The position numbers were made by a program, and so were the translations under genes. Below the pieces are notes generated by a model that was not told the origin of the DNA, searched no databases, and saw only the letters and a program-made list of their open reading frames with translations. Shown one piece after another: positions 389 through 46,967 of a stretch of 64,000 bases of DNA; within the stretch, counting starts at the first letter, position 1, and every line of letters begins with the position of its first letter. Source of the stretch: Halichondria panicea (Eukaryota; Porifera; Demospongiae; Suberitida; Halichondriidae); assembly GCF_963675165.1 (NCBI RefSeq), contig NC_087392.1, forward strand, positions 2,433,001 to 2,497,000. Direction: 5' to 3'.

Positions 389-3300
389 CTATCAATTCCA
401 AATATCTCTAATACTGGCTTCACTACATCTTCTATTGACTGCTGGTTCCATTTCGGGTCAGTAAAAAACATCCCAGACACCTTAGCATACACATTAGAAC
501 ACTTGGACAACTCTTGCAAACCTGCAACATACCGTGAATCATGATTCACAATGAAATGAATGTGACACAGCTGTACGAACTTCTCCGAGGCAGAAGTAAC
601 ACGTATAAAGTGTAACACCTGGTGTACTTGGCAATTTAGATGTGAGTAAAATAATAACCAGCACAGGTTGGTGGCAACATTATAAGTATCAACACTTTCA
701 AGTGCAAGTGAAAAATAACACAACATATTTCCTCCAAATACTACTACTCTATACCTCATACCGTATTACATTTTTCAGGTGACAATTGCGAATGAGCCAA
801 ATCAGCAGAAAAGTTGACCCTTTGCGATCTAACTATTGCGTTCTGGCAAGGATCGTATGTATTTACTAGTAATAATTTAGGTTTTGCGGATTTTATTGTT
901 GCGAATTGATCAACCCTCGCAAAGTTCACAAATGTTTGATGCTTGCAAAACATTCTAGTAATACGGTAATGTAGCAAGCAAAAAAAAGAAAAGCAATAAC
1001 ACTGCAAGCTATAATAAATATAATTTAGACACTAAGATCTACACAAGTGAAAAGTGCCTGGGAGGAAGTTACTATGGGACTTAGTATATATACAACATAC
1101 GTATACGTAGTATCTCTCGTTGTCAAGCAACTATAATTATTATAGTCAAGTAATCCCATTACACCTCCAAAACAGTGTCTAACTATTATAGTTACACCAA
1201 GGGCATAGAGGGCATGTAACTGACTATCAATCCTTCGTGCGAGCAAAAACCAAAGCCACAGACCGGATACACTATGTACTGTACACAAAAATCTATTTAT
1301 AGATATGTACTTTCCACTGCCCACTTCAGTTTTTACTCACAAGTTGTTGCATGCCCCCTTCTCTTTTATACGCCCTTGGTTACACGCATGCACACCGTGG
1401 CAATGTCGTGTCTATAACATAATGTTTTGTCTACGTCTAAAATGGAGTGGTTGGGCATTCTACTCCATTCTATATACTGCATTTCTACTCCTTTTAGCCT
1501 TTTACCTGGCACTGGAGGGAAGGCCTAGCTCCTACATAGCTTCACCAAACATGGCTTGAGGTTGCATATGTCATTGCTTACAACACTGGTTATGGGCTAG
1601 AACTTACATTTGCATGTTAATTGTACTAAAATAATTATATAGCACTGCACTCACTGCCCTCACTAAAACACAAGTCTATAGGCTCTGTCCACTACACTGT
1701 ATTTTGATTGTGATGACCTAAGAAATGTACGCATGGAAGAGTTGACAGTAATTCGAACACCTTTACAAACATTAATTACTGACATTACAATATTGAACAA
1801 AGCAGCGACACAAGAGGTTGGTCTTGGCATGGACACGATATCATTCCGATAATGTAACCATAGAAAACAGTATGGTTTCTTAGTATTTAGTGTGACAACA
1901 CGAAGCTATAAACCATACTGATTTCTTCTTAGTATTTTTGTGAATGACATACCATATAAATTAGTCCTCCTTGGAAATACCATAATTGATCAAGTAAACA
2001 CACATTTCTCATAATTGATAGGCAGGCGCAAGACAGAAAGAAACCACAAAACTCACAATGAATGTATATGGCACTTACTATAGCTGATTGGCACGTACAT
2101 AACAGCAGTGCACCATGCCTTCAAATAACACGGAGGATTGACAGTAAGTATCAAGGTTATGACTAGACATCTGAAACTATAACCATTCATGGACATTTTT
2201 GAAACTCACCTTCCCTCCAAACTCTCATTGACTCCGGGTCTCTCTCATAAGGGACCCCACAATGATTCACCATCACCATCACTCTAGGGTGATCCCTCAC
2301 CACTGCCGCAGCCCTGCATAGCAACATGCATAGCAACATGCATAGTTGTGCAACCACTATACAATCAGTACTCCATTTATACAACTCCAAATCAAGAATG
2401 GCCCGGCATTACCCAAATAGAATTTCAGAAAGTGGCAGTTATTATTGAAGTGTACATGATGAGGATCTCCAGTATATTACATGTGTCAAAAATACTGCCT
2501 GTACCTTTTCATTTGGCCAGGTAGTATGTGGAGGTCAAAAGAGAGGTTGTATTTCTCAAGGAGAGCGAATCCTCTGATCCAATTTGGGTCAGTGAGGTAG
2601 TCATCGTGAGGCACGGCATTATACTCAGGGTGTGTTTTGTGGAAGTTTAACATTTGTCTAATTCCTCTCATTCTCTTGTGCTCACTGTGTCGCTTGAGAA
2701 TGTCTTCAGCATCGGGGGAAGACAGGTCACAGTAGCCCACAATAGCTGCATGCGGTTTGTGTGAAATGACAATTGTGTTTATTGTGTATACATGCTAGCA
2801 TACCATTTGGTGTCCCAGTACTGTCTGCTAGTCCATTCAGCCAGCTGTAATTATAAGTATAGATCACTATTAATTCTTTTACTGTACTCCTTTATCAGCG
2901 AGTCGATTCTCCTAGCAGTAGGGAATTTACTTTTCCAAGAAGCTACAACCCCATGCAATACCAATGTATAAGCATGATCCCTTTAATAATTATAGAGCTT
3001 TGTGGCAGCAGTTAAGACAGGAATCCCACACAAAAATGTTCACAGTTCACACATCATATTACATGTGAGAACCACTCACATCACCTGACATGCAAATCTG
3101 TTTGTGATCATGGTAGCAACTCACTACCCAATTAACTTACACGAACTAAGTTAACACACATTGTGCCAAAAGCTAGACATATCAGAGTCTGAGGAATAAA
3201 ACAACTGTGTGTCCCATTATTAAAGACCATGACAAACAAGTAAGGCCAGCCAGCCAGCCGATGATATGCAGACTGTTATATTTAGGCAACAAGAAACTAA

Positions 3301-3956
3301 GCAGAACGTCCATACTTCCTTTGGATGTTGTACATAATCAGTGTCAGCCATTATTTTGTGAGCATAGCAATGATCTAATTCTTGTGACCCATGCAAATAG
3401 GAGTGTACGTAGCGAGTGTGATCTGTCAGTCCAGTTAGTCACATGTAAATAGCAATACAATTCAGTGACAACGTATATACAAGCAGCACTTACACAGTTT
3501 CCTCAACAGGGTCCCCCAGCCATGCTGCCTGCACATGTACACACTGCACCACATTGTGACCCTCTGTGTCCTTTTTGTAGTCATCCGTCAGGTAGGTAAG
3601 GACAGACTCTGAAGGAAGAGTTCTTCAAAATAAGGTCTTATGCATCCCTCTAATAATGCGCCACCGGAACATTTCGCATTATAGCCTTTTTCACGGTAGA
3701 TCTAGATCTAGCAGTTCTACACTATAACCGAAATAACTCAAGTACGTACGTATGAAGATTTCAGACTATAGCTGACAATCAAATTGTGATTGTGGAAATA
3801 ATGCATCATGCCTTTTGCTCTGGACAATGCCAATTATCATGCTCTGGATATATAGATCTACAATACATTGGACAGCTTACTAAACATTTCGACTTTCGAG
3901 ACCCATGGGTGCGTTTCAGGAGTCCACAAATGTATGTGTGCATCAACAATCTCCAT
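389..3956 (-). CDS. Amidohydrolase-2 family enzyme, tandem copy 2 (3' end outside window)
   Basis: Predicted metal-dependent TIM-barrel hydrolase of the amidohydrolase-2 type (lactonase/decarboxylase-like; substrate unknown). Six exons are visible: 3881-3956, 3494-3608, 2804-2844, 2505-2745, 2210-2313, 389-521. Exons 2-6 have exactly the same lengths (115, 41, 241, 104, 133 nt) and phases as copy 1 at 4262-7953. The N-terminus keeps the HxH metal motif (DAHIHLW) and later DLSSPDAED, VNHCGVPYE and VYAKVSGMF. Exon 1 is shorter than in copy 1 (76 versus 97 nt): the sequence after HPWV is unrelated, but a GTAAGC donor restores the same phase. The terminal exon (FASNFPVD in copy 1) would lie beyond position 1. 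No stop or frameshift is seen, so it may be a working paralogue, though exon 1 remodelling could have damaged it. Confidence 0.75.
759..968. mobile_element. TA/CCGTA-terminus MITE, 210 bp, in amidohydrolase copy 2 intron
   Basis: Begins TACCGTATTAC and ends with its exact reverse complement GTAATACGGTA, with no coding capacity. A diverged relative lies in inverted orientation at about 52766-52934 (PGAP2 intron 1), sharing stretches such as 'gcgaatgagcca', 'ctggcaaggatcg' and 'attctagtaata'. A truncated right end also appears near 5365-5393. Confidence 0.7.
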
Positions 3957-10763: not shown

Positions 10764-10778
10764 TTGCATTGCAAACGA

Positions 10779-13900: not shown

Positions 13901-16193
13901 AGCGACCCTGAAAGCATGTTACATATAGTTACACAACAGGACCATAGGAATAATGTTACATATAGTTACACATAGTTACACATAGTTACACAACAGGACC
14001 ATGGAAATGTGTGAGCGTCTGCAATTATAAGAGAGTGTATAAACCACTATCAGCCCATGTGTTGCTATGCAACTGAAATATAATCCGCCTTGATTGTACA
14101 GGTGGCTATAATGGGCCCTCAGCCAATAATTGTGCTGGCCACAGTACAAACATATTTAGAGCACGCAGCTGACACCACATTTGTACCTGCAGGATTCGGA
14201 CCACTGATAATAGTAGGAGACCGAACAGTAAGCCATTGTACTGAAAGTGAATGTCTTTTGTGATGTCAAAGTTACAAACAAACAAACAAAGTATTATATG
14301 GCACAAAAATACTCACTTCACCAGAAGCACCTCCTTCTACGAGGTATAGATGAAGTGTGTGCATGCATGGTTTGATTTCCTAGTATCCAAACCTAGCAAG
14401 TGCCAACAATTCACTGTATAATAATTCCAACGTAATTAGCGAGGATACGATCCACAACTAGTAGTCCATAGTTGAGTAGAAGGAGAACTGCCAGTGTGGA
14501 GGTGGGTCGTACCGGGCTGATCTTGTCTCTAGGCAACTTGTCATACCTGCAGGATGGAGTACCGAATTTAAAGGCCCTGCGTGTACATATAATTTTAATT
14601 AGTGAGATGCCCAGAGGCTACATCCAGCACTTAACTAAACTGGATAAGCCATACCAATTTTTTATGTTTATGTGCTAGGGTGCACGGGTCAATTAAGGTG
14701 AGGGTAAAAATATGGTATAGGGTCAAGAACATAGTTAACTCTATGACGGTTGCCTGAATTTTAATGACAGAGTGGTGAATGTGATTGGCAAGACAGCTTA
14801 CTCCAGTACGGCATAGAGGAGCACAAGATCAGTGACACTGACAGAGAGTCTCTGAAAGAGGATACAGGACGAAGCGCTGTAGCTGAGGCTGTCCAGCTGT
14901 ACTATCAGAGGGTCCACCAGCGCAGCTAGCTGGGAGAGGAGGAACTCAAACCAAGCAAAGAAGGGTGGGTAGTCCAGTGTCCACTCTGACGTGGCCTATG
15001 AGGGGAGGGGGCATGTGTGTGCACAGTTACATACATGTACGTGTGTATGTATAATGTGTGTGAATGTATTATAATAATAGTCCTGGAATGGATTATACTG
15101 TGATGTAGGGTGGATTATACTGTGATGTAGGATGGATTATACTGTGATGTAGGATGGATTATACTGTGATGTAGGTCTATACATGTACCGTATATGCTTG
15201 ATCAGAGGCCGCGGCTACTACATGTTTCATTTTGTTGGCAAAGGAGGCTACAATTCGAGAGAGGCGTTTAATCCTTAGGTCTAACACTCCAGCAAATGCA
15301 ATCACCTTCAGGTTGCTATTTTCACCTGGGGCACAAACTTGAACTCTGCCATGAGAAAGTCTTTCTAAAGCACTAAAAGCTGCTACCTAGCTAGCTGCTA
15401 GTATTAATATGGCTGCCACGTGCAGAAATGCTAGAGTCAAAGTTCACTGAGGCTATTATTTGAGAGCGGCTACTAAATGTTTAATTTTGCTGGCAAATGA
15501 GGCTACTATTTGAGAGCGGCATTTAGTCAAGAGTGGCCTCTGATCAAGCATACACGGTATTTACCATCTTCAATCATACTAAGAAGGTAAATAAATATTC
15601 GATTTAATGGGACACTTTTAAATAACTACAAAGCCATAGGTCGCTTCTTTTAAGGTTGAACATTATGTTGAAGTCTTTGTGTCGCATATTTAGGGGTTGC
15701 AGGAGGTCGGTCAAGGTTACTCTGCTAGCCTCGATTCCAGGCCGCTTGTCGAGGCTAGAGATGGCTACTTATTTTGACCTTTAGGATGCGACATAAAAAT
15801 TTAAGTGAAGCAGTCGCTAACTTTCAGAGGTCATAAAATTGCCTAGATCGAGGGTGTCGCATATTTTGAGGGTCACCTTAATCAAATAAATAACAAAAAG
15901 CATGTGTATACGAAGTTTGGGTACATAGATCAGTCAATAAATGGGCATGGTATACTCATTGCAAACTCACCTCGTAATACCATTTTGACAGCGGTAGTGA
16001 GTGTGTGATGGCCAGCCAGTTCCGGTGGACCTCAAAGTCAGTCGACCTGCTACAGGTGGAGTATCTGAGTGGCATGGCATCATGAGGTTGAAAATTATGT
16101 CACTTACTAGGCAGGTATCAGTAGGATCTTGATACAGGTGGCTGCAAGAAACACACCAACAGGAAAACTGTACCTCCATGACCTCAATTCCAT
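10948..16193 (-). CDS. ALG8: ALG8, dolichyl-P-Glc glucosyltransferase (530 aa)
   Basis: Adds the second glucose to the lipid-linked oligosaccharide in the ER membrane during N-glycan precursor assembly, using dolichyl-phosphate-glucose. Twelve exons: 16108-16193, 15971-16049, 14802-14995, 14449-14546, 14187-14254, 13659-13907, 13336-13456, 12859-12986, 12530-12669, 12368-12465, 11916-11988, 10948-11206; total 1593 nt, all phases consistent. Family landmarks: [18 protein letters not shown] (luminal loop), [69 protein letters not shown] and the C-terminal LPLLLTSV. Length matches human ALG8 (526 aa) and many hydrophobic segments are present. The start ATG gives MELRSWRYS before the first membrane span. 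It shares a 220-bp upstream region with SHQ1. A 32-bp tandem duplication covers the donor of exon 11. Confidence 0.95.
11881..11944. repeat. 32-bp tandem duplication covering the ALG8 exon-11 splice donor
   Basis: The unit at 11881-11912 is repeated exactly at 11913-11944 and contains the last 28 coding bases of exon 11 plus GTAA. Two identical donors result, at 11916/11915 and 11884/11883. Only the first keeps the frame into exon 12; use of the second would insert 32 nt and shift it. Confidence 0.85.
13509..13564. repeat. 56-bp near-perfect hairpin in ALG8 intron 6
   Basis: Two 26-nt arms (TAAGCATTTAAAAGCC... and its reverse complement) differ at one position, which is G:U-compatible on one strand, and are separated by a four-base loop (ATTT). 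Flanking TA suggests a tiny inverted-repeat element; a structured intronic RNA is the alternative. Confidence 0.7.
15089..15176. repeat. Minisatellite, four copies of a 22-bp unit
   Basis: Unit TGGATTATACTGTGATGTAG plus GG/GA/GT, four head-to-tail copies that differ only at the last base. Located in ALG8 intron 2. Confidence 0.9.
15186..15559. mobile_element. TA/CCGTA-terminus MITE, 374 bp, in ALG8 intron 2
   Basis: Ends TACCGTATATGCTTGATCAG and, inverted, TACCGTGTATGCTTGATCAG: a terminal inverted repeat of about 25 bp with one mismatch, continuing AGGCC. The interior holds 'gaggctactatttgagagcggc' type repeats. No coding capacity. Confidence 0.85.
15726..15757. repeat. Short TAGCCTCGATTCC hairpin element
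   Basis: Thirty-two-base palindrome starting TAGCCTCGATTCCAGGCCGC and closing with CGAGGCTA. A longer relative is at 16231-16292 and related fragments lie near 24510-24640, upstream of TUBGCP4. Confidence 0.6.
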
Positions 16194-19931: not shown

Positions 19932-22900
19932 TCAAGTGTGATGTGCCATGGCTGTGCTAAAGTATTTGTTGTAGTCGACTCTTAGCAGCAGCTGGGCCAG
20001 GTGAGAGGAGGACTGGTGACTGTGCACGCTCGATACAATACGGAAGAAATAAGAGGCTTGTCGGTTGAAGTCTTTTGTAATGCGATCCATCTTCTCTTTG
20101 TCTTGGGGTGTGAGAGAGAGGTCACTCCTGCCTTCGATGACTGAGTTGAATGAGTTACAAAGGCCAGTGATCTCCAGTACGCACTGGTGCACCTGAATGG
20201 GGGGGGGGGGGGAATACACTTTTCATGAACAATTCAAGAAATTCTTGTGTGTAAACTGTTAGGCATTGAGCCTCGATCAGGCTTAACTAGCATGAAACTG
20301 TTTAAGCACAGTTATGTATACGTACATGCATGTATGATTGCTGGATGCACACAGTACAACCATTGTGTCTTTCATAATAAAAATGGTGTAGATCTCGTTT
20401 TATGGTTTCCTTCCATTCCTACTTACTGTTGGCTGTGTCAAGAAGAGCTGTGACTGAATGGCAGTGACGAAGCTCTCGTGAGCATGTTTAATAGACTCGA
20501 AGTCGTGGGTGGAGTTAACCTTTTCCAATAGCACGGAGAACTGAGACTCTAGCACATCCACCTACATCAATGTGTGTGCGTGTGGATGAGGGGGAGGGGT
20601 GGACTGTGCTGCATACATAAGTAAAATTAACATCTGTGCCTCAGCCACATCAAACAAAACCATAAACTGCCTTAGAACATCAACTTTAACCACCAACACA
20701 CATACCTGCACATAGTACAGGAGGCTATCAACGAGGAAGCCCATGTGTGTCCTGAGTTCACTGACCCGCCTCAACTCGTCCACCCTCTCCCGGTGCTGCA
20801 TAAAGACGGTCCAGCTCTGCTGCAGTCTGATTTGAGTACGTCGTAGCAGCAACAGGAACTGGAATATAGTGTTGTATCTGGGTGGAGAAACAAACACTGA
20901 TCGTTTTTTGGGTAACAATGGAGAGGATGTTGCTTGCATCATTGTGGGTGTATCATAACATTTTTAGTTCACATGCATAAATAAAGTTTAGAGCAACGTT
21001 TAGAGCAATGCTACCATATAATGGGCAGTCATGAATTCTCATGAATTGTGGTTGATTTTCTCATACGTCGTTCAGGGAGAGTACTAGCAATAATAAACAC
21101 TTACTTTTCTAGTATCAGTGGTGTAAAGAGAATGTGCAGGGGCCATTCTACAGTGTGGGACATTCCGAGGAGTTGCCACGCCTCTTTCACACCCTCACCA
21201 CGCCCACCATCTCCCCTCGGGGCTCTAGTCTGAGGCAGGGTGAGTTGAAACTGCTTCATCAGCTCCTCTTTTTCTATGTTCACCTTCAGCATGGCCTGCT
21301 GAAATGCCACATTCACATCTGAGTAGTGAGTTTGTGTGTGTATGTGTGTGGGGGGGGGAGTTGTATTTACAAATTCATTAAGACTACTGCACACAATGGT
21401 AAACTATCCACACGTTCTGAGTGGTAAAAACATTCTGAAAAACTGCACAAACTGTGGGTACATTGTGTGTACATTAGTATTACAGTACCATGACTGGTGG
21501 TGGGTGTGGGTGGAGACTTGAGGAACGAATGAGCAAGATCGAAGAATGTCAAGAACAGTTCTCCTCGTCCCAGTAGAAAGAAATCCTTGATAACCTACAC
21601 AACAGATATAACATTTGTATAACATTTGTAACACTGTATGTGCATGTACATGTATGTGTGGGTATAACTAACAGTGCACACATTCATTCATAGGGGATCA
21701 AGATGCATATATATCACAAACACCAAGTTAAAGCTTGCCAAAAGTGTAGCCCAGTCACCTGGAGGTGTGCCACAAGACCCGAGTCCTCTACCAACAGTTT
21801 CCAGAGTCGCTCAGCCACACTGTCTCGTATCCTATCCACAGCACTCTCGAAGTCCCTCAGTTTGAACACTGGCTCCCTCCGTAAGTCAGCAAACAGCTGG
21901 CTGAACCGGAGCTGGTCAGACCTCAACTCAGAACCTGGGATGGAGAACATCAATTTTTTGGGAGAATATGCCCTACTAATAAAACGATGACTACATTATA
22001 CTGTGCTAGTTGGACGTGGCCCAATCTTCTGTTAAGAAAGGAGGTCGGGTTTCAAGCTAATGCCAGGATTTGTCTGGATAGACACTAGAATGATACTAGT
22101 ATCATACGTACATGTACATTATGTTAAACTGCTGACACACCTTATTTCGTCGTTCTTACAACCCTGCACTTTACCAGACCTAATACATGTTATGATGTAG
22201 TAGAACTATCCCCTCTAACACTTCACCATGGATACTAGCCAACGTGGTTACTTTTAACTATACAGTGGAACCTCCATAAAACGGACACCATTGGGGAACA
22301 GCCTTTTGGCCGTTATAGAGAGGTGGTTTTCCTTGGGAGGTTTCGATTGCCAGCTATGTATGCTCTATGAGTCATTTCTTGTTGCAAATGAATCCTTTTG
22401 CTAACTGCTTCTACAAGCTTTAAAAAGGCTGTAGAGACACGCTACAGCTAGGTTTTTACGATTGTGCAAAATAATTCTATCTCAGCAATAATTTTATGGG
22501 TGTGGCTGTCCATTCTGGGAGGTTATTTTCCATTGCTAAAGCTGGTTAGGGACTAGAAAGCTGCTCGTTATACGGAGTAGAGAGGTGGTCGTTCCTGAGA
22601 GGTTGCCTTACATTGAAATCATTGTAGTTTCAATCCGGACCTGAGCTCTTGGGCGTTATATAGCGCGTGGTTGCTCTTCGGAGGTGGTCGTTAATGGATG
22701 TTCCACTGTAGATATATTATATACTGTGCTTTACCAGACCGTAAGATGCTATTAGTAGAACAATCCCCTCGAACACTTCAACAATGTCGGAGGTCAGTGG
22801 CTCACATACCTGCAACAGTTAACAGGGTAGACAGATCACGTTTGCCATGAGCTCTCATTTGGAATATCCGAACAGCCTCGCCCACAAACAGGATCTAGAA

Positions 22901-24702: not shown

Positions 24703-26056
24703 ATGTTGACTTACAGCTTTTTAAACCTTATACTTCTAGTAAGTATAACAGTAGCACAAGGTAAGCATGCATGCTATATCGTGCGCTATCCTATTGTACT
24801 TGTAGAGATAGAGTCTACTGCATAAATATAGATACACTATTGCTATAATAAATTATAGCTATTTATTTTAGAGTAAACTTTCATTCTCTATTCTCTAATT
24901 TTGCAGATCAATGTCCTCTTGGGACCTACTGTGGTAGAGCATGCTGCTTACCACTTATTCAGCGATGTTGTGCAACGTCTAATGACCCTACTAATCCTTT
25001 GCTCACATGCTGTACGGCTGACTCTACCAACGTTGTTGCAACTTGTGGCACTTTTCAATGCCCCAACAGCCTACCACCTGAGGAAGTGTACGACACAGCA
25101 GTGACAGTCACTACCGGTGAAGCAGCGCAGTTACGAAACCAGTGTTGCATGTACTTCAGAGAAGGATGTTGCAGCCAGAGTGAAAACAACTTTCTAGATT
25201 TGCTGTAAGTTTTAGAGGTTATGATCTCAACCATATTTTCTGCAACAAATCCACCCATTTGCATTCTTTAGTGGATCAATAATATCTACAGACAATAACA
25301 ATAAACGCTGGTACATGATTGTCACTCAACAGCAATGGTTATATACCACCCCCTGCACCATGTAATAGAGTGTAAACATAACAATGAGTGCATCCCAGCT
25401 TTTCCCTCCCGACACCACACATAATATACTGTAAAGATTACCGTATAGAGGGTAATTTTCGTGGGGCAAAATATTCGTGATTTTCGTGGTTGAAGGTCTG
25501 TTTTACCCACGAATGAAACGACCTTGCCTATACCTTTACCGCAACCACGAACATATTAACCACGAAATGTCTCAATATTGTTTAACCACGAATATTTTGT
25601 CCCCCGAAAATTACCCGCTATATTAGGTATAATAGCTGCATCACTTTTATTTTCTGGCAATGCATAAGCAACTTCTAACATGCAATTGATTCCACACGTA
25701 GTATATACATGTACAAACAATGAACCTGGAGCCTAGAATCGAATTGCACTCTAGATCTGGGAAACTAAAACTTGGGCGATGCCTGCCCCAATGCAGGTTT
25801 CCCCTTACTTTATAGTATGCTTTGCACACTATCACAGTTTTTTTTTTATGTATTTGGCACCCTTCATGCAATGAGTTAATGCGTCAAAGGATAACCAAGC
25901 TATCATTTAGAAGACTGTTAATATAGCAATAACATGCAGTGTTAATTTCACTACAGATACAAGTTGGCACTTGGTCTGGGAATTGGACTCGGTGGTTTGC
26001 TAGTGATCATCCTGATACTGGTGGTGTGTTGTTGCTGCTGTGCAGTATGTAGTTAG
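24703..26056 (+). CDS. Cys-rich single-pass type I membrane protein, unknown family (151 aa)
   Basis: I do not recognise this family. Three exons, 24703-24760, 24907-25204 and 25957-26056, give 456 nt in frame. Residues 1-19 (MLTYSFLNLILLVSITVAQ) are a clear signal peptide, with an intron just at the expected cleavage region. The ectodomain holds 14 cysteines, including five CC pairs (GRACCLP, QRCCATS, LTCCTAD, NQCCMYF, EGCCSQS). A Gly-rich membrane span follows (LGLGIGLGGLLVIILILVV), and the protein stops after a very short tail, CCCCCAVCS, a probable palmitoylation cluster (inference). The layout recalls small Cys-rich adaptors of the VOPP1/Shisa type, but the Cys spacing does not let me assign it. 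AATAAA at 26292-26297 may be its polyadenylation signal. Divergent from TUBGCP4, convergent with ILK. Confidence 0.75.
25439..25629. mobile_element. TA/CCGTA-terminus MITE (GGGTAATTTTCGTGG family), copy 1
   Basis: Begins TACCGTATAGAGGGTAATTT and ends, inverted, with a diverged form of the same (CGAAAATTACCCGCTATA...GGTA). The interior consists of 'cgtggttg'/'ccacgaa' phrases. Related copies at 33139-33347 and, more distantly, 40196-40425. Lies in intron 2 of the Cys-rich membrane protein. Confidence 0.8.
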
Positions 26057-26844: not shown

Positions 26845-29324
26845 TCAGGACACCTCCAACTTGTCCAGAATGGGCTGTATCTTCTCAAACCGAGGTCTCT
26901 TGTTCGGATCTGCATTCCAACAGATATCAATGATCCTTTGCAGGTGATGATTGACAAACGATGGAATGACCGGTCGAGCGTTGTCCCTGGCAATCTATGA
27001 GAAAAGAAAACAATCTACAAAAATTCCATCAGCGCCGCAGCAACAATTCATAACTGTTTAGTATAATAATTATGTCAAAATGCTAGTAGAAAGTTTTATC
27101 CTGATGCTCTTGAAATACTGAGCTCCACCTTAGTTCCAGCGTGCATGGGAGATAGGTCTGCGAAGGGAATCTTCCCAGTAGACACCTCCCAGAGGATGAT
27201 AGCAAAGCTGTACATGTCAGCCGCTTTCTTGTCAAAGTCTTCAGGGCGGTGCTGGAGAACTGGGGGAGGAGGAAAGAGAGTGATATATTGGTATACGAAA
27301 AAGGAAGCCACCAAATGGCGTTCCAAACATGTGTATCTAGTCAGAACTACTCACTGGTGTTTACCAAATTGAACGACACGTAGCATTGACTGTAAGACTG
27401 TAATAAATCGGCACACCCAACAACTGTGTTTATCCCGTTGTCAGTGGCAACGTAAGAAATGTACATGTAACACCCATTCACAAAATTATACTTACGTTCA
27501 GGGGCCATCCAGCTGGGCTTGAAGACCTTATCATTGTCCATGAAAGAGAACCTAGTGTGAGGGAGATCAAGTTTAGCAGTCAGATCCTCATCGACCTGTT
27601 GTGTGTGGTGAAGAGACATTGTCAGTGCAATGTCTATTTGTGTGCGAGTGAAGAGAGAATGTCAGTGTAATGTCTATTTGAAGTGGAAATAACTTGTTCT
27701 CTGCGAGGTACGTATGTACCGTACTCTACCGAAATTACGCCCACCCCCACTGTTGAGTGAAATTTCCTGCATAGGCTAATTTGCCTCAAGAATACACCCA
27801 CCATGCAGGAAGTGATGCATTTGTCAGTGAGCAGTTGTCAAGAAAGGTTTAGCAGTTTATTGTGTGTAAGCTGGTTAGCTCTAGATCTAATACTTACTCG
27901 TATAAGAGACAGAGACAAGGACAATCTTCTCTGAATCTATGTTGAAGGCTCTGACAGTGACAAGGAACAACCTTCTGATGCAAAATCTTGACTCATTATA
28001 CCTAGCTACTTTACCCATGCATCACCATTGTTGTATATTGATGTATTTATTGTATTTTAAGAGCTGGCAGGCCTCAGACGAAGACTTATTTCTTACTGAG
28101 TGGGCTTAGTTTCGAGGCAAAACTACTGTTTTCAAAATTAAGCCCACCCCACCTGTAGCTGCTTTGTAGCATGCAATTAGGGTGGGCGTAATCTCGGTAG
28201 AGTACGGTACCATTTTGGGGAAGTGTGGAGCAATGTCCATTGATACCTTAAGATGAGTATGTGTGGTGCGTGGAAGTGACATGTACATGCTTACAAAGAC
28301 GTGATGGGGGTTGAGGTCAAAATGCTTGATGAGTGGATCAAGTGAGTGAAGATGGGCCATCCCATGACATATGTCCCTACAGAACTTGATGCCTTCCTCT
28401 AGATTCACTTTGATCTCTGCAGAAACAAGTTACGCAAGCACATTACACATCTAGATTGGGTAGAAGGTGTTCACAACGGGAATTTATGAGTACATTAAAA
28501 CATTAAAAGTGCCACTGAGTTCATACTGGCGGTAACGAATAATAGAGTCCAATCTGAAAGCTCATGCTTGCAAAAAGACATAATTAATTGCCTAGAAACA
28601 AAAAATAAACTTACCCGACTCGATATCATGGAGGATATAATAGAGGGAGCCCAGCTTCATATAGATGCCTATAGTGTGAACCTGCGGCTCTATGATGACA
28701 CCAATGAGAGGAAGGATGTTATCATGGTTGAATATCCTGAGACGTGTGTACTCATGATGAAAGTTCTCCCTCAGAGTGGATCTAAAGACATCTCCCTTTG
28801 TCTTGAGCTTCTTCACCACCACAGTGTGACCACTCCACGAGCCTTTCCACGTCTGCACAGGGGAATACATAGCCGTAAATACAAGATGCACATTAACTAT
28901 GTTTTCCTAGTAAGGCCGTATTACAGTTTCAAATGCAGATTTAGGAGTAATGATTTCACAGTTTTTGTCAAGTAATGAGCCTGAGATCAGGCATATCCAC
29001 ACTCTACTACAGCACCAGTGTGTTCACTACCATAGCACACACCTCTCCATAAGATCCCTGGCCGATCTTGATAGACATTGTGACCTGGCTCTTCTCCACC
29101 TCTGCCTGTCGCTGCTTGAAGTCAAGGTCTGTGGTAATCATTACACAAGATGATCATTACAACTTATAATTATTATGTGCAATAACTTACAGTCATTCTT
29201 CCTCATTGGCCGAACCTCTGTACAATGAAACACGGAATGAGTTAGGGTAGTAGCATAATTATTAGTACTGGCTTACTCTTGTGGGGTACAATGACCAGGC
29301 TTTGATCAAACTCCGCAGCAAGGG

Positions 29325-31770: not shown

Positions 31771-34629
31771 ATGTCGGGTGCACTTATGCAAGCAGCTCGT
31801 ACGTGCAGCTTCTGTCTGCACAGCTACCCAAGACAAGTATTGTATCATCCGAAACTAAGTGTGCTATCTGTCTCAAGAACAGGCGCAAAACTCATAGAAC
31901 ATCGCTTGTCGTGTATTAAGAGGAATGTATCGAGCACAGTAAAGCGTGCACCTTTGTCATCCTATGCTTCAAAGGCGAAGTTTTGGATCAGAGACAATCG
32001 CAAAACTAGTTTATTGCTGGTTGGATGTGGACTCCTCGGAAGCTATCTATCAATATTAAAGGCTCGACATTCTCAATGTCTCTCTCCTGCTATACCTGTG
32101 GTAAAATACCCTCAAATCACTAGTCCCATAGAACACTCAGAAATATTTACTAAAGAACTCTCTATTCAACAAAAGCTCAAACTCTCACTTCGTTTCATTT
32201 TCCTCTGCCTCGTCTTCTCTCCAATGCTCATCCTCCACACAGCTTCCTATCTCACAGGGAGCACTTTTCTCGAGAAGGTAGAAGTCCGATACCTTATTTT
32301 TGTGCTCCAGACTGCTGGTCCTGCCTTCATCAAACTTGGTCAGTGGGCAAGCACTAGGAGAGACCTCTTTAGTGAGAATTTCTGTCAGACCCTCTCATCT
32401 CTACACACTCATTGCATTCCCCACACCTGGGCAGAAACGCAAGAGTCCTTGGTGCAGAGTTTTGGCGAGGGCTGGAATCAACACCTTCTGATTCAGGACC
32501 ACGATCCGATTGGCTGCGGCTGTGTTGCACAAGTCTATCAGGGATATTTGAAACGCTCACAAGAAGAAATTGAGAGTGGCAGTTATCCCTCTGGAGAAGG
32601 TGTGCCCATTGCTGTCAAGGTGATGCACGCAGGTATGGTTGAGGCTATGGACCTAGACATTAATTTGATGATGGGTGTCGCCTCCTGGGTGGACTACCTC
32701 TATCCTGACGTGCACTGGATTGCTCTAAAAGAGTGCGTGGACGAGTTTTCCATGACTATGCAAAAACAGGTAATAATTATACTCGTTAGCACACGTACAC
32801 CATTATTATGATCATTATTAGCCATTGATTTTTAATTCTTGACGGTGATAACATTATATTTCTATCATCGCAGCTTGATATGGAGATGGAGGCTCACAAC
32901 CTATCCAAGTTCAATGTACTGATGACAGGATACGATAGTGTCAAGTTTCCTACGCCCCTCTATCCGTTTGTCACTAAGACTGTCCTTGTCGAGAGCTACG
33001 AGGTAATTTGGTATTTTAAGCTACATGTACATATTTTACTTTGTCTGGATTAAATGATGTGGATTTGTATCATCTGAAAAGCATTCGTCCAATTCATGTT
33101 AATTCCCATGAATATAATTCATTATCATTCACTTTCACTACCGTATAGCGGGTAATTTTCGTGGGGTAAAATATTCGTTATTTTCGTGGGCAGGCTGACC
33201 TCCACGAAATTTTATCGTAGGCGTGGCTTATCTGAACGTAGGAATGCCGTGCAGCCACGAGACGAAATGAAACTTTTACTCACGAAAACTACCATTTCTC
33301 GAGTTGAACAAATGTTTTACCCCACGAAACTTACCCGCTATACGGTATAATTATTGCAGCGAGGTGATCACATATCAGCGTATCTCAGTGAGCCAGGTGG
33401 TCACCTTCAGAAGAGATTGGCCAAAATTGGTATTGATGTTTTGCTGGATATGGTATGTTGTAGCTATATCCTCCGCCTACTTCATTATCGCTACCAACCT
33501 CTGCTTGTACTAGCTGCAAACATTCGGCCTGAGAGCAAAACACCTGTGCTTTCACTTTTTCTGAACTCATTTCCCATTTGAATACCCTGATTTGGTTAAT
33601 TACCAAAAAAGCACATACTCACCATCCATATATCACACACTCCACCCCCACAGATGTTTATCCATAACTTTGTCCACGGAGACCTTCATCCCGGCAACAT
33701 CCTCGTCCAAGACCCCTCCTCACACCCTAAACTAGTGTTCATTGACTGTGGAATAGCCACCAGCCTTGGATCCGTGGACTTTGAGAACTTCTACAAATTG
33801 TTCAAGGCAATAGTGACAGGTCACGGGGAGACAGTGGCAGACCTGATGCTAAACGGGCAGACGTGTCATACCCTCAGCGAGTACAGACGGGACATGGCCG
33901 AGCTAGTTGATGAGCATTTGCAGAGCCATCTTAAACTGACAGAGGTACAATAAATGTGACGCTCGTGTAGGTCATTGATTAATAGTACTAATTTGTATGT
34001 ATATAGATTCAAGTGGGTACATTGTTCTCGAGGCTTTTCAATATTCTCATCGATCATAAGGTTAGTTAAAATTCTGTCAAGGTGTTTACTGCATACGGTA
34101 TAATCTGGTTAATAAGTGCACATCAAGTAATAGGCGCATACTGGTTAGCAGACCAAGAGCCTTGATAGAAGGCGCATGGTTTTCTGCATTAAGTCTCTTT
34201 CACTACTGGTAGTTGTGTTATACTGCTGTCAGATATGACTATAGACCTCTTGCAGACAAACGATCGAGCTAGCTAATGGAGATATGCTTCATTGAAACGT
34301 CATGGGCGTGGTTAAAATAAAATCTCTATAAGCGCATAGAGGCTTGCTCTTTTCCCTATAGGCGCATGCGCTTACTAACCAGATTGTACGGTATGCTGTG
34401 TTAGCTCTTGTATGACGAATTGTGCTGTTAATTGTAGGTACGGATTTCCCCTAACTACACTTCCGTGATGGCGGGTCTGATGGTGATTGAGGGAGTGGCT
34501 CGATCCCTCGACCCTGGTATAGACATTCTGGACAATGCCAAACTCTGTATCCTACAGAGGGCAACGCTAGTCTTTCAAGATAAACTCAAACAAACTTCTA
34601 GGAATGTTTGTGACAAGTTTTTCTCTTAG
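31771..34629 (+). CDS. ADCK2: ADCK2, mitochondrial aarF-domain (UbiB-like) atypical kinase (585 aa)
   Basis: ABC1/UbiB-family atypical kinase; ADCK2 proteins act in mitochondria on coenzyme Q and lipid metabolism. Six exons: 31771-32769, 32874-33002, 33360-33452, 33654-33944, 34007-34060, 34438-34629; 1758 nt in frame. The first 100 residues are basic and Ser-rich with a hydrophobic stretch (SLLLVGCGLLGSYL), fitting mitochondrial import. Family motifs: KxGQ as FIKLGQWASTRRDLF, the ADCK2-type GCGCVAQVY in place of the Ala-rich loop, IAVKVMH (ATP-site Lys), FVHGDLHPGNILV (catalytic loop), and FIDCGIAT at the metal-binding Asp. The C-terminus ends RNVCDKFFS. Close to human ADCK2 (626 aa) in order of motifs. 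Two inverted-repeat elements lie in introns 2 and 5; the first ends only 12 bp before exon 3. Confidence 0.93.
33139..33347. mobile_element. TA/CCGTA-terminus MITE (GGGTAATTTTCGTGG family), copy 2
   Basis: Begins TACCGTATAGCGGGTAATTT and ends AACTTACCCGCTATACGGTA; the arms are near-exact inverted repeats, also sharing 'cgtgggg'/'ccccacg'. Its right end stands 12 bp before ADCK2 exon 3. Confidence 0.88.
34094..34393. mobile_element. TA/CCGTA-terminus MITE, 300 bp, in ADCK2 intron 5
   Basis: The right end reads, inverted, TACCGTACAATCTGGTTAGT; the left end reads TACGGTATAATCTGGTTAAT, so the inverted repeat runs about 26 bp with a few differences. The interior carries 'ggcgcat' phrases. Non-coding. 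Confidence 0.8.
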
Positions 34630-37545: not shown

Positions 37546-37565
37546 TTACACTGTCTCAATAGTTG

Positions 37566-37571: not shown

Positions 37572-37644
37572 TTATGTGTGTGCGGTATTATTTTATACAA
37601 AAAGCAACAAAATAATTATTAATGATTAAAAAGACACAAATTTG

Positions 37645-40600
37645 CTACCTTGGAGGCAACATTGGTTTTGGCTTGAGTGCTACTACAGGTCTCTGGCTAG
37701 AGCTACTGGCACCTCCATGTCTACTCAGAGAGGGATTATTGTTCTGCAAACAAGCGGCCAGTTCACTGTTCTGAATTTTGCTCAGGACTGCAGGTTTCGC
37801 TTTAGGGGTAGGTGGTGGTGGCTTCCTTGCTGTCTCCGGACCATTAGGTGCTCCATAATTAAAATTTCTGATTTCTGATGGCTTCCTTGCTGTCTCTGGA
37901 CCATTCGGTGCTCCATGATTAAAATTTCTGATTTCTGATGGCTTTCTTGCTGTTTCAGGGCCACTAGGAAATATCCTCTTTGGTTCCGGATTGTACATGT
38001 TTGAGACAGGTGGATCAGGTAGTGTTTTTCTCATTCCCGAATTTTTGACTGGTTGGGTACGTGGAATTTCTGAAGGTTTAGGTTTACTGTTCAAAAATGA
38101 TGGCTCTGGAAGTTTTTTTCTTACGCTTGGACTTACAGGAGAGGTAGGCTTTCTCTTTAATACAGCATCAATGTCTCTTCTAACATCAGGAGCAGACTGC
38201 TTTTTCACAGCCGTTTCGGTACCATTTAGATGTGGTTCTTGCCATTTCTTCCTCATCCCCCCCGGACTGACTGGTGGTCCAGGGAGCTTCTTTCTAGAAT
38301 TTTGAGGAGAATCAATACTCAATAGGTTATCGAGCGAAGAGCTATTAACTTTTGGTCTATTTGCGACGGGGGGTGGTGAAGTGGCCTTTGGTTTGTGGCT
38401 CATGTTGTTGGGCTTTCGTAAGGGTATAGGTTTAGGAGAAATTTCTCTTTTTGCACTCTTTGGAATAGGTACTGGTGGTCTGCTAGAAACATTTTCCATT
38501 GAAATTTCCCTTTTTGTACTCTTTGGAATAGGTACTGGTGGTCTGCTAGAAACATCTTCCGTTGCTATTTCCGACCTTTTCCAGCTTGGTTGTACATGTG
38601 TAATGTTTTGCTTTGGCTGTTTAGGCACAGGTGAGGACTGTTTGTGGATGTCACTCTTTTTATTAAAACTAACATCTTCGAAAAGATCATCGTTTTTGGT
38701 TTCATGATAGCCTAAGGCAATCTTGGGTGGTGGCAATGGGAGTCGTGTTCCCCCTGCAGGTACGGATATTCCTCGCTGAGGGGTGTGAGAAGGAAGAGAA
38801 TTAGTCTTATTCTCACTATGTGGTCTGCTTAAAGGCGGTCGAGTAGACTCTGGCCCTCTGATAGGTGGTACAGGGGGTACTTCGTCATCGTCTGCATAGT
38901 TCATAGGGGATTTTGATCGTGGTGGTAGTGGAATAGGGTTGTTCACAATATGTGGGTAGGATCTCGGTTTATTCGGTGTTGTTGTTGTTTGATGTAAGGA
39001 CCGACCAGAGGCCTGGGGGTGACGTCTTGGCACAGGTGGGGCTGACTCATCGTCCGAAGATAACAAAGGGGGGGCAGTGTTTGTTTGAGATGGAGGAGGA
39101 AGTGGCACAGGTAACCGATCAACATGTCTGGGTGGTAGTGGAAGAGGAAGACTCTTTTCTCTGCTGGAATGGTTGTAGTCCAAATATGCCTGGGGTGAGT
39201 TTGGGTCACAATCCACATAACTGTCAGTGTCACTCTCAAGACTCTCCTCTTCACTCATCAATCGCTCCCTAGCTGCTGATTTGGACAGTTCTCTGTTATG
39301 TACTGGAGACCGTGGAGGGTATTCAATGTCTTCATATGGGCCTTGCTCATCTTCACTCCAGCTCCTCGACACCTGTCTTCTCTGTTTCAACTTTGATCCT
39401 AAATCTGATTTGAAATTGACAGCAAAAGGCATAGCAGGAGGGGTGTTGGCCCTATTCTTAACAGGAGGTGGTGGTGGTTGGAGCTTTTTAGTCCTGGTCA
39501 ATAAAGGAGATAGCCTTGAAGATATATTGTTCATGGGGGGCCTTAAATTCGGCGATTCATCTCTGAGTGACCTGTCAGGAAGTGGGGGAGGGGGTCCACT
39601 GGGGAAGTCAAATTGTGTCTCGTCAAATGACGAAATTACTTCACTTTCTAGTATCTTTGTAAATCTCTTTGATTGCCTGTTAGGAGGTAGTGGAGGAGGA
39701 ACACTATTGGCAGGGTTTTTCCAAACAGGAGGAGGCTGCAAGTTGAGCTTCTGGAGCACTGTGTCAGAGATAATACTATCGTATACATCATCAACCTGCT
39801 CAGCAAATGAATACTGGTCTGGCAAATGAACCAAGTTTGGATCTTCATAGAGGGAAGTCCCATCATACCCCCGAGATGGGGATGACTTGGGTGGAGGAAG
39901 AGGTGGGCGGAGCTTTGGCTTGTTCATTAGAGAGGGTTGTGTAGTGTGATCAGGAAATTGTGAGTTAGAGGATATGGGTAAGTGAGGAGGAGACACAGTG
40001 TCTAGAGATCGGGAAGACACTTCGAAATAGTTGTCTTCCTCCACTTCACAGTCAACTGTAATGGGATGTAATACACAATAATGAGAATATAATTATAGTC
40101 AATCATGCATGGTAATTATCCACTTAAGCAATGACAAAAACATTTTGAGTGTATACTGAAATCCGAAAAGCACACACAAAATCGGCATTAACATATACCG
40201 TATAGCGCGAAATTTTCGAGGGGCTTAATTTTCGTGGATTTCGTGGGTTAGCAATCCTACACGAAAATTAATTCCACGAAAATCGTTCTTTACCTGCTAT
40301 AACGTGCAAGATTTAAAGGCGTGGCTTCCGGTAAGCAGTCATTCCGCGAACATTGTGCAACGAAATGGCTTTTAGAGGCCAATCCACGAAATATAAGTGC
40401 CTCGAAAATTTCGCGCTATACGGTATCAGCTAACTGCTAACTGTAAAATGGCATCTATCTAAACAAACAAGCATACCTGCTGAGAAGCCACATACATCAG
40501 CCAGCACAGCAACCCATTCGTCCATTGTGTCCTGACTCTCACAGTCAAAAAAATAGTCTCTGTTTTTGCCCTTGACAATAATAGCTATTTTGATGATGAA

Positions 40601-41876: not shown

Positions 41877-44800
41877 ATGGGAGGTGGTGAAGTTCTGAGA
41901 AAGGGATGGCTCATTAAGAGCCCACCTTTAGACAGTGGAGGTATCAAGGTGAGTTTGGCTGTTCCTAGCAAGCTAGCTTACTCTACTAGCTAGCATTGCT
42001 TGGTGAATGAGACTCTCAAAGTGAACCTAGCTGCACATAGTATACCACCTTATATGCTTGTACTGTATAAACCAAGTTGTAGATGAGTGCATGTATTAAA
42101 GTTATGAGGAGAGATTCGTATGATTTCCGAATCTAACTATTGTTTATCTGTTGGCTAATTCTGGTTAATAAACACTTTAATCTGCCTCGAATCAATAATA
42201 ATTATTGTGATAATTTAATACACAAGTAGTCCTAAAAGTCCACTGTATGGTACTACATCAGCTAATACTAAAGAGGTGAAGGCTGTAAGTTGTGACAATG
42301 AAGGTGACAGTATTTTAATAGCATGCATGTACATGTACATGTAATGTGGATTGCTAATTTCTGGTTTAGGGACAATTTTACATCCTTGGCTTGACATTAT
42401 TTTGTCAATGTAGAGTGGTTGTAACACGGATTAAGCATAGCCTCTACACAGGCTCTCCTTTTTCTGTTCTTTATCACAATCGTTCAATAAGATAAAATAC
42501 TGTATAATTCGTTCAATGAGATAAAATACGGTATTAATTGGAGGAATAAAGAAAGAAATAGACGTAAAGTTAGGAAAAAGGAGAGCCTGTATCGGGAAGT
42601 CGCGTGAGGGTAGAAGGGTGGTAGAAAGGTGAAAATGAGCGTGGGCATACTGAGCTAGAGATGTTGGACTGCCCACGCAGAGGTCTACGACTAATAAAAC
42701 TTTGCCTGCAGCAAGCTGGACATGGACTTGGAACTGGAAGTTTGCAAGCACTATAGCTATTAGGCTTAGCTAGATGATCTACTAGTCTAGATTGTGTGTT
42801 TAGATTCTATCACTATCACCTTTTCTTGTGTCTTTCTACATGCTATAGTAGAATAGCTTAGTCATCATTATCATATAGCAGGTAGCTACTGCCACCAGAA
42901 CTGGCCACGCTGGTTCTCTGATCTGACTTGCAGCACAGCTTGGTGGTTGTCTGAGTTTGAGTGCAGTACAGTACAGTCTTACTCTGAATGCGTGGGAGAA
43001 TACCTTACGTCACAATTGTGGGCTACATATCGCCCACGTTCATAAAATTCCTTGTGGATCACGCGATTTCCCAAACCAGGCCTTACTTTTTCTTAACTGT
43101 ACGCCCATTTCTTTCTTTGCTGCCTCACTATGTCTTTCTTATGTTTATGGATGAACAGTGACAAGAGCAAGAAAAAGTAAGGCCTGGGAACGAGGCTAGA
43201 TTAAGCATAACTTTCTATTTCTGCACCTGTTGGGGTTTGCAATGTATATTTTGTGGGAGTAAGTTGTGTATCATTTTTGAGTAAATGTAGCAAATAATCT
43301 GATCAGATTTCTCTTCATTACTGATGCGTGTGGCAACATTCTATCTATTGTCACCAGTCTCAGACTCAGACTCCACAGGCTTATTCATAGACTCTCAATA
43401 TTTTGGAACTATGCGCTCTATATTTGTAAACTTCAAACAAACAACTTTGTTTATTTTATGGTGTTATTTCCTCTTACATCTGTTGCTATTACTCGGCTAG
43501 TAAGTGCATGGTATAGAGATAATTATTAGAATTCCTTCCTCTCGCCATTGTGTGAAAACTACAGTTATAGCTTCATAAAGTAAAGTTTGTATATTAATTG
43601 TGTGTCTTTATAGCTAAAGAATGTAGTTGCTACATAACTGCTGAGTAATCATTGATCACGAGTAATGTCAATATAATATACGTAGCTGTTCCATTAGTCA
43701 AGTACGTCAACAAACTGCACTACCAACTGATGCTTGTATTTGTTTGTATTAATTAGTAAGCAACACATAAATTATTGCAACTGAAGCCTACTGCTGTTGC
43801 AATTATTATGCTGTGTAAACTAAACATACTATTTCCTATTTCTCCAGGCCTGGCGGAAGCGATTCTTCAAACTTCGCTCGAGCAAGATTCTCGAATACTA
43901 CAAATCAGAGGATGGTGACCTAAAGGGTGTGATCAACCTCGAAGATTGCAAGTCTGTAAATTCTGACCTCTTTCACAAGAAGTATAAATACGTGTTTGAC
44001 ATCGAGACACATGACAGGGTATTCTATCTGGTAGCATCCTCCTCTGTAGAGATGACGGAATGGGTGGATACTCTTTGCAATGTCTGCGGCTTCACTCTAA
44101 GGAGCGAGCTAAGTGAGTTGATTTTAGTTGTTGAGGGCATCTATATACTGTGGACACTTATAATTATCCCGGACACTTTTCTGGGCAATTTTCGTAGTTC
44201 TAATACAGCAGACAATGTAAATTTTAAAGCACCAGAGAGTGGTGCTTTAATTTTACTAAATGTCCGGACAAAACCTTAAATACCTTCCAAGCAACGTAGC
44301 TTAATTTATAGCTAGCAAGAGTTCTGCAGTTAGATGCTCGAGTTTTAGTAACAACTGTTTAGTCCCACACTGTATTATTAGCTCGCAGGCAGCTGTTTTA
44401 CGGACATATCACGTACATGTACGCTATAAAGATCCCTTCCAATTATACTCCAATTTTTTGCTGCCCGATATATAAGATATTTTAACAGATGCAGATTTTT
44501 GCTAGTTGGCTCAAGAACCCTCAGAAGAAAATTTCACGTGTTGTAATATTCGTGTTTCAATGCCAGGAAACCACACCCACCAAGAGGCCGGTGCGTGTGA
44601 GTCTCCCAGTTAATTTTCGCATTGACTGGAAGTTTTGAACCTCACGAAAATTTCCCACTACATGTACAAAATGTGTAATTTATGGTATACCGTATATCTT
44701 CTAATTTATCGGACAGCAAAAAATAATTATTTTGGAAATTGTCCGGGTATAATTGGAACAGATTTTTATAGAGCATGCGAAGTGTCCGGAATAATTAGAA

Positions 44801-46967
44801 CAAGCAAGCAGCTGCATGCGAGCTAGCTAAGTTTAATAGAACAAGGTACGACTGAATAGTTGCACTAACTATCTAAAACTAGCTACTCAAAGCTATCTAA
44901 CTGCAGCACTCCAAGTCTTACTTGCCGTCTATGAATGGTAACTCAACTTTTCAAGGTATTGTCCGGATATTTAGAACAAATGTAATATTAAAGTACTGGA
45001 GTGTCCGTTGTATTAGAACAACGAAAATTGCCCAAAAGAGTGTCCGGGTAATTAGAAGTGTCCGATAAATTAGAAGATATACGGTACTAACTGTTGCTCA
45101 CTTGTGTGGTCATTGATTATCTTATCTCCTTCTGCATCTGTGTAATATACACTTTTTGCTTCTGGGCCCACTTTAAATCAATTTGGGATACATTCGCTCT
45201 TTGTCTACACACACACACACACACACTGCAGCTCCTGCAGAGCAGTCCAAGTCCATGGGTAGCATAAAGCACTCCAAGGGCGATGCTGTCATCTCTCCAC
45301 CCGTCTCGACACTACCTCAAAATGTCAGTGGAAGTCTATTAAGTGACAAATTCGGAGTAGTAGAGAATCAAAGTGATGTCTACTCACTTGCTTCAGCAGC
45401 TCTCTATGATGTGCATACAAAGCTTGGTCGTTCCACAGAGGTCCCTGCAGGAACTTCTCTCTCAGATGCTCTCACCGCTAAAGGAATGGCTCCATCGCCG
45501 TATAACTCCACCTATAGTCAAGCTACATGTACACCACTACCTGACGGTGCATATTTCTCACCCCGAGAAAACGATGTATCAGCCCTGTATGCTGTCCCAG
45601 ATAAGAAAAATAAACTGCAAAAACAAGACAAAGCTGTGAAAGATCTCAGTCCAAACCATCGAGTTCTAAGTAGCACTAAATCCGATGCAGGAGCAGTTTT
45701 GAGATCAGAAGAACAGGCACCAAAACTTCCGAGTTCTGCATCTGTCTCAAGTGGCTTTAGACCGGCAGAAACTATGGCCAATGGATACATGCGACCTTCA
45801 CAGTGGACTAGCAACCCAAGACCTGCCAACTACAGTTATGTATCTGGTCCTCCGAGACCAGCAGATGCATCTTCAGCTACCCATCGCTCTGCTTTGTTGA
45901 AAATGGAAAATGACCTTACACCAAGTGATGACAGAAGAGACTCACCTGAATACACCAATTTGAGAGAGCTTCGTGAAGAACTGGGACGAGTCAATGCACC
46001 CCCACAAATCGATCGCTCCGTGAAGCCCTCACCGCCTTCAGTTCAACGAAGCTTGAAACCAGGAACAAACTTAGATATAGACAGCCTTCCCGCCTCCCCA
46101 CCAAACTTCCCCAGTCGGACTGGCTCTGTGTCTACTCCCACTATTGTCGATGCTACTGATCTACCCAGACCATCAAAGAAGACAATGAAGTACACTCAAT
46201 TAGATTTTCACTCCGAATCTGGTCAACTGTGTTTTATTGCTGATCAGCCAGTTAACGATACAGCATCTCTAAGAGCTCCAGTACCCATACCACGAAGCAC
46301 CAGCAAGCCAAAGAGAGTTAACTATTCGGACATTAACATTCGGGCGACTGTTGAAATGGAAACCAATTCTTCCACGGAGGAGGCTAAGCAGAAGCACATG
46401 AGTCTGGTTGAGGCTGAGGTGGCTGCTCTCGCTGAGAAACCATATGTGAATGTTGCACGAGATGGACTGCCAGATGATGACACTGACCCTGATTACTACA
46501 CACACATGAGAGTGAGCTCTAACGTAGCATTAATTGCTCTTAGCTGACTATGTTCAACAGTATTGTAACACAGTGAATAGAATCTAGCCAATATTGCCTC
46601 ATGTGGGAATCCCTCATAACTTGATTGCTGAAATCCCTCATAACTTGATTGCTGAAATACTTCTCAGGTTAATTTGTACTTGCTACATGCACTCCTCTGC
46701 ATGCCCTGTTGACTTACAATGCCATGTAATTACTATTCTCAGGACCTCCCAGCAGACTCTTTGCTTTACGTTCTCATGACAAAGAAGGGAGATGGAAAGG
46801 TAAAATCTTTGTGTTGGACCAGGCTTGTTTAAATTCGTTCAATGATTGTATGTCACCTATTTTGTACAAAACTCTTTCAGTCATACTATGATTAAATTGT
46901 GCACCTCCATTTAATCTCACTGCAGTGTGACGAGAACTTGTATCAGGAGCCAAGAGAGGGCCACTAA
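41877..46967 (+). CDS. GAB-like PH-domain docking protein B (571 aa)
   Basis: GAB/DOS-type adaptor: binds membrane phosphoinositides by its PH domain and recruits SH2/SH3 partners after receptor activation. Five exons: 41877-41948, 43848-44112, 45232-46511, 46743-46799, 46926-46967; 1716 nt in frame. The PH domain (residues about 4-112) matches GAB1 closely: GGGEVLRKGWLIKSPP, KAWRKRFFKLRSSKILEYYK, YKYVFDIETHDRVFYLVA, EMTEWVDTLCNVCGF. The disordered tail has two GRB2 C-SH3 type PxxxRxxKP motifs, PPQIDRSVKP and PPSVQRSLKP (about residues 368-390). It also has YTNL (about 352, YxN type), YTQLDF, YVNV, YTHM (about 535, YxxM for PI3K p85), YVLM and YQEP near the C-terminus. Introns 1 and 2 hold several inverted-repeat elements. 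Head-to-head with GAB-like A; convergent with the GLIS-like gene. Confidence 0.9.
42437..42660. mobile_element. Inverted-repeat element, copy 1, in GAB-like B intron 1
   Basis: CAGGCTCTCCTTTTTC at 42449 and its reverse complement at about 42577-42592 bound a hairpin of about 145 bp. Flanking sequence through 'cgggaagtcgcgtgagg' and 'gtgggca' is shared with the inverted copy at 43025-43195. Includes a short tandem duplication ('cgttcaatragataaaatac') at 42480-42530. Confidence 0.6.
43025..43195. mobile_element. Inverted-repeat element, copy 2, opposite orientation
   Basis: CAGGCCTTACTTTTTCTTAA and, inverted near 43173-43189, AGAAAAAGTAAGGCCTG form the arms. The left flank 'gcccacgttca...tcacgcgatttccc' is the reverse complement counterpart of copy 1, so the two form a large inverted pair in one intron. 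Confidence 0.6.
44153..44276. repeat. Truncated relative of the 44688-45086 element
   Basis: 'ggacacttataattatcccggacactttt' (in parts) and 'gggcaattttcg' match the inverted right half of the neighbouring 399-bp element. A small hairpin, 'aaagcaccagagagtggtgcttt', lies inside it. Confidence 0.65.
44688..45086. mobile_element. TA/CCGTA-terminus MITE, 399 bp, in GAB-like B intron 2
   Basis: Exact terminal inverted repeats of at least 28 bp beginning TACCGTATATCTTCTAATTT and continuing ATCGGACA. The interior repeats 'gtccgg...aattagaac' phrases. Non-coding; the best preserved of the CCGTA elements here. Confidence 0.92.
46611..46658. repeat. 24-bp exact tandem duplication
   Basis: CCCTCATAACTTGATTGCTG plus AAAT, twice in a row, in intron 3 of GAB-like B. 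Confidence 0.9.

Follow-up and report, generated by a model that had tools for sequence, protein, structure and literature searches.

Eight inverted-repeat elements in the 64,000-nucleotide stretch of Halichondria panicea DNA analyzed here (the window) are real, lie far beyond chance expectation, and represent six families, not eight. About ten families with the outer tip CCGTA are present in this genome. The elements are short, non-coding, bounded by terminal inverted repeats (TIRs), and present in many copies, as is characteristic of MITEs. We consider it probable that they are orphan Stowaway-like MITEs that insert at TA and depend on a transposase supplied in trans, one of the IS630-Tc1-mariner type and most likely from the pogo group. 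The families are new, but their kind is already known: they do not form a novel system but correspond, in an animal, to the Stowaway elements of plants.

The first-pass annotation had described at least seven elements that start with TACCGTA and end with TACGGTA. All eight elements it placed are present at their positions, although the exact heptamer stands at both ends in only five of them (759-968, 27717-28209, 33139-33347, 40196-40425, and 44688-45086). The other three (15186-15559, 25439-25629, and 34094-34393) each have a single variant end. The elements, together with a pogo-like MITE used for comparison, are as follows.

759..968, unstranded: F5 MITE of 210 bp, tip TACCGTATTAC, TIR of only 11 bp
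15186..15559, unstranded: F4 MITE of 374 bp, TIR TACCGTATATGCTTGATCAGAGGCC, right end TACCGTG when read inward
25439..25629, unstranded: F1b MITE of 191 bp, right end degenerate (TACCTAATATAGCGGG when read inward)
27717..28209, unstranded: F3 MITE of 493 bp, TIR TACCGTACTCTACCGAAATTACGCCCACCC
33139..33347, unstranded: F1b MITE of 209 bp, TIR TACCGTATAGCGGGTAATTTTCGTGGGGTAAAA
34094..34393, unstranded: F6 MITE of 300 bp, left end TACGGTA, right end TACCGTA when read inward
40196..40425, unstranded: F1a MITE of 230 bp, TIR TACCGTATAGCGCGAAATTTTCGAGG
44688..45086, unstranded: F2 MITE of 399 bp, TIR TACCGTATATCTTCTAATTTATCGGACA
22261..22710, unstranded: pogo-like MITE (comparison element), tip TACAGTGGAACCTCC

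An unbiased scan of the window for TA-bounded TIRs (threshold, at least 18/22) recovered the elements at 15186, 27717, 33139, 34094, 40196, and 44688 at their ends, and the element at 25439 starting 5 bp inward. Apart from these, the scan mainly returned the terminus TACAGTGGAACCTCC, the pogo-like tip of 22261-22710. Chance expectation was derived from 200 first-order Markov versions of the 64-kb window. The window contains 20 TACCGTA/TACGGTA heptamers, compared to a mean of 3.6 and a maximum of 10 in the Markov versions, and five heptamer pairs within 600 bp, compared to 0.015. Four heptamer-bounded pairs have a TIR of at least 15/20; none was found in the 200 Markov versions. Among the 64 TANNNTA heptamers, TACCGTA alone bounds more than one element in the window, and no other heptamer bounds an element of its own, the two other matches being internal positions of the same elements. 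Related ends and fragments occur elsewhere: the 759 element has partial relatives at 52768-52925 and 5329-5391 in the window, a tip of its type (TACCGTATTACTAAAATG) is present in locus L008, and F4-like tips are found in locus L038 and in L124+L024.

The assignment of TA as the target site, and hence of CCGTA as the shared terminus, is borne out by paralogous occupied and empty sites for two families. In a P-like transposase copy, a 744-bp F7 element (C1:12627661-12628404) has inserted into the final portion, and the sequence that follows it encodes a PF21789 domain. The occupied site reads ATATCATA/TACCGTA...TACGGTA/GTGG, and three paralogous transposon copies without the insertion read ATATCATATAGTGG. 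Two of these three match the joined flanks of the F7 site at 99%, so the insertion is recent. Likewise, in locus L111 a relative of 27717 harbors a 155-bp F11 element (TACCGTAAAACCTCGATTTAAGG), and the site there reads TATACC/TACCGTA...TACGGTA/GCTAC; the window copy 27717 provides the empty site, TATACC/TAGCTAC. TA is thus duplicated upon insertion in both F7 and F11, as it is for Stowaway-like and, likewise, pogo elements. In addition, the insertion point of one F7 copy coincides precisely with the TA at the end of an F1 element (TACGG-TA-CCGTA).

The families differ considerably in how much they share beyond this terminus. The elements at 25439, 33139, and 40196 belong to a single family, F1, and the first 51 bp of 25439 and 33139 are 94% identical. 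The F2 element at 44688 is related to F1 at its ends, with TIR sequence beyond the heptamer common to both, and the F3 element at 27717 groups with the genome families F7 (TACCGTACCCTCGCGAAAATACGCCCACCC) and F8, all three having CGAAAWTWCGCCC in common. F10 and F11 are further CCGTA-tipped families found genome-wide. A shuffle test on the TIRs beyond the heptamer recovered the clusters F1a/F1b/F2 and F3/F7/F8, whereas F4, F5, F6, and F10 mostly stand alone and have essentially only the tip in common with most other families. The earlier description of the families as unrelated is right in part only: it may apply to the latter four, which share mainly the tip, but not to the F1 members, F1/F2, or F3/F7/F8. 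The statement that only the heptamer is shared is true for some families and false for others, and is too strong overall.

Several families are also abundant. Exact matches to the F1 end pattern number 1,923 in the genome, compared to 0 for the reversed control. F6 has at least 40 genome copies, several of which match the window element from first to last base. For F7, 85 right ends were found, with a commonest size of about 740 bp when the two end lists are paired, along with long copies that measure 1.5, 2.2, and 2.4 kb. Of these, the one of 2.2 kb seems to contain a decayed P-like insertion, and no transposase was recognized in the inserts of the other two. The zero count for the pattern TACCGTAAAACCTCKATTTAAGCG is uninformative on F11, since F11 reads AAGGCG and the pattern differs. 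TACCGTATTTT was rejected as a family: it has 519 genome matches, but these are largely internal to an unrelated repeat and not termini. Its sites in L001-L005, in L012, and at one position in the window read CCAATTAATACCGTATTTTATC with a conserved outer flank. This flank, CCAATTAA, is common to most of the fetched examples, with a differing context in L008; the context table drops repeated 40-mers and does not include L006 and L007. Raw genome counts of the heptamer are consequently misleading, as the high TACCGTATTTT count stems at least partly from this unrelated repeat.

The link to the pogo group is provided by the TIRs. A complete pogo element (C6:450207-452880) has the TIR TACAGTAGAACCTCGATTATCCGG at both ends, a 456-amino-acid open frame over the DDE_1 match, and CENP-B_N and HTH_Tnp_Tc5 domains. 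Beyond the heptamer, F11 (TACCGTAAAACCTCGATT) is similar to this element (TACAGTAGAACCTCGATT), a score reached by none of 20,000 shuffles (0/20000), and 4/20000 shuffles reached the F11 score against the pogo-like MITE at 22261. The corresponding values for F2 are 40/20000 and 14/20000; as the comparison covers 12 end sequences against 8 references, they would be modest on their own after correction. Inside the F2 element at 44688, repeats of the type TTCTAATTA-CCGGACA also occur several times and are similar to a pogo TIR motif, and F2 internal repeats such as TTCTAATTACCCGGACA resemble the pogo repeat CCTCGATTATCCGG. Together, these sequence similarities point to the pogo group for F11 and F2; they are no proof for the other families, and F1, F3, F4, F5, F6, F7, F8, and F10 showed no clear pogo similarity in the TIR comparison. 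The TA target is a further likeness to pogo/Tigger elements (DDE_1, CENP-B_N; IS630-Tc1-mariner). However, the tip differs from the CAGT of pogo in its second base, with C here and A in pogo (CCGTA compared to CAGTA in the C6 element), and no transposase-coding CCGTA element was found in the flanks of the 9/63 DDE_1 matches covered.

In the favored scenario, the MITEs are non-autonomous cut-and-paste DNA transposons with the outer tip CCGTA that duplicate TA upon insertion, and the enzyme mobilizing them in trans would be an IS630-Tc1-mariner-type transposase, with the pogo group as its likeliest affiliation. The terminal TA-CCGTA would act as the cleavage end and the subterminal motifs as putative binding sites, and most of the interior would tolerate change, as it does in the Stowaway elements of plants. 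The transposase behind them may have been lost from this genome, have diverged, or have been missed. The first-pass annotation had proposed a search for an autonomous element that encodes a DDE transposase and has the same tip, but no such element was found near any of the 77 transposase matches checked in total. For DDE_Tnp_4, none of 30 loci with 1.5-kb flanks is CCGTA-bounded. For DDE_3 (Tc1), 38 of the 96 matches were covered, 30 of them as loci with 1.5-kb flanks and 8 weaker ones in their flanks only, and none has a CCGTA tip; nor is any of the 9/63 DDE_1 matches CCGTA-bounded in its flanks. Wherever pogo or Tc1 termini were read, the tip was CAGT, CAG, CTG, or similar and never CCGTA. 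Tc1 (DDE_3) was rejected as a source, its readable TIRs being TACAG, TACTG, or similar. The mariner Transposase_1 profile gave no match, but its control was also silent, so that absence is not implied.

It is quite possible, if somewhat short of probable, that a single old autonomous lineage with a CCGTA tip gave rise to many of the families, with an inherited tip and an otherwise diverged TIR. This is compatible with mobilization by a pogo-type transposase as proposed above. Besides the TIR clusters, it is suggested by a second motif, CGAAAWTWCG, that is common to several families and lies at a near-constant distance from the tip: the pattern TACCGTAN{1,14}CGAAAWTWCG, with the motif within 14 bases of the tip, has 117 genome matches, compared to 3 in the control. 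The shuffle test, run in either direction, also finds F2 and F11 to be similar (0.006 and 0.008), which argues for shared ancestry. F4, F5, F6, and F10, however, have no consistent residual similarity to the clusters.

These four families share little beyond the tip with most others, which would fit the alternative that mutually unrelated families converged on a single tip and that one extant transposase reads almost only CCGTA. Rice Stowaways offer a precedent, since distant mariner-like transposases move these MITE families, which are themselves orphans (PMC3660474). We nevertheless regard this alternative as rather doubtful, as F1/F2 and F3/F7/F8 are related beyond the heptamer and no such transposase was found near the 77 checked matches. 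Because several TIRs share common descent, part of the supposed convergence is accounted for. The initial proposal of one transposase recognizing mainly the tip thus loses ground for the clustered families and for want of a CCGTA-tipped autonomous element near the checked genes, but is possible for F4, F5, F6, and F10.

It is unlikely that CCGTA marks the ends of elements belonging to a separate and so far undescribed transposase lineage (an altered-tip pogo branch or a superfamily without a Pfam model) that would read almost only the pentamer plus TA and move many sequence-unrelated MITE families. An origin from CACTA/CMC-type elements, which combine a short tip with subterminal repeats, is very unlikely: the short conserved tip, the repeated subterminal motifs, and 26 Transposase_21 matches in the genome, identified at the domain level, would agree with it, but CCGTA is the tip here and the TIRs of two families are similar to those of pogo. 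Membership in the ISL2EU/Harbinger (PHIS) group is extremely unlikely, even though F2 ends adjoin DDE_Tnp_4 and YqaJ-like genes (intact ISL2EU) in L014+L125 and L126+L021 and a Harbinger-like DDE_Tnp_4 gene in L124+L024. In L014+L125, inverted ends of 56 bp (AGGGCGTATGC) belong to the ISL2EU element itself, which divides an F2 MITE at A/AT/T, the published ISL2EU target (PMC4482050), and the Harbinger-like gene in L024 sits between two halves of an F2 MITE, while CCGTA elements duplicate TA, not AT. ISL2EU/Harbinger was thus rejected as a source, these cases being read as insertions into F2 MITEs (L126+L021 is resolved in part only).

The tip CCGTA sets the families apart from Stowaway sensu stricto, whose tip is CTCCCTCC. 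They further differ from plant Stowaway in their animal host and in the likely transposase group, which is pogo and not plant mariner. Otherwise, the likeness is close: the elements are short, non-coding, and high in copy number, have a TA target and short terminal repeats, and form many families; a cognate autonomous element is missing from the genome for Stowaway (PMC3660474) and was not found near the 77 transposase matches checked here. Work in yeast shows that Stowaways are mobilized by mariner-like (Osmar) transposases without a cognate autonomous element in the genome (PMC3660474). Among animals, the CMITE families of corals, which are reported to be related to piggyBac-like elements, also have one conserved part in common; however, CMITEs share the interior, whereas the families described here share the ends (PMC2872659).

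The first-pass annotation had placed all elements in introns. This holds for three of them: 759 is flanked by two exons of an amidohydrolase gene on the minus strand, 33139 by two exons of an ABC1-type kinase gene, and 27717 lies in an intron of an integrin-linked-kinase-like (ILK-like) gene, between its open frames, whose translations, trimmed and joined by hand, match ILK at 4.8e-32. The elements at 40196 and 44688 adjoin PH-domain exons and are probably intronic, and an intronic position is a possibility for 15186, 25439, and 34094. Since some CCGTA elements lie in introns of conserved genes, they shape intron length. In this animal genome, several MITE families can be seen, with the help of paralogous empty sites, to have one tip and one target, and the CCGTA families constitute a natural experiment on the minimum of terminal repeat that a transposase requires.

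Coding transposons of three groups found elsewhere in the genome, two of them in nested arrangements with CCGTA-tipped MITEs, and a separate repeat containing the heptamer TACCGTA are located as follows.

C13:1851876-1857840 (genome loci L014 and L125): ISL2EU transposon inside a MITE of family F2, AT duplicated at A|AT|T
L119, L120, L121, L122 and L123 (genome loci): P-like (THAP9-type) transposon, at least four copies
C6:450207-452880 (L131-L132): pogo element, 2,674 bp, TIR TACAGTAGAACCTCGATTATCCGG, 456-aa open frame
Window 42533, minus strand, and loci L001-L005 and L012: separate repeat with CCAATTAATACCGTATTTTATCTCATTGAACG

The ISL2EU transposon retains an intact THAP-DDE_Tnp_4 frame of 454 aa, together with a second frame of 560 aa that is putatively YqaJ-like, an assignment made by reading the sequence itself and not by matching it to a domain model. 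Among the P-like copies, three are nearly identical, and one copy is split by an element of the CCGTA-tipped family F7 at the 3' end of an intron. The pogo element looks complete, and its left end carries the TIR motif in three repeats.

In the CCAATTAATACCGTATTTTATCTCATTGAACG repeat, conserved flanks lie on both sides of the heptamer. Several TACCGTA copies at C1:6238891-6241671 (L103 and L127), immediately following AC-rich microsatellites and having conserved flanks, are apparently an internal part of another repeat. The TACCGTACTCACCCGAAAATACG-type end occurs in six copies, all on one strand, within approximately 63 kb (C3:6606537-6669426); the relatives L114-L116 have their outer flank partly in common.
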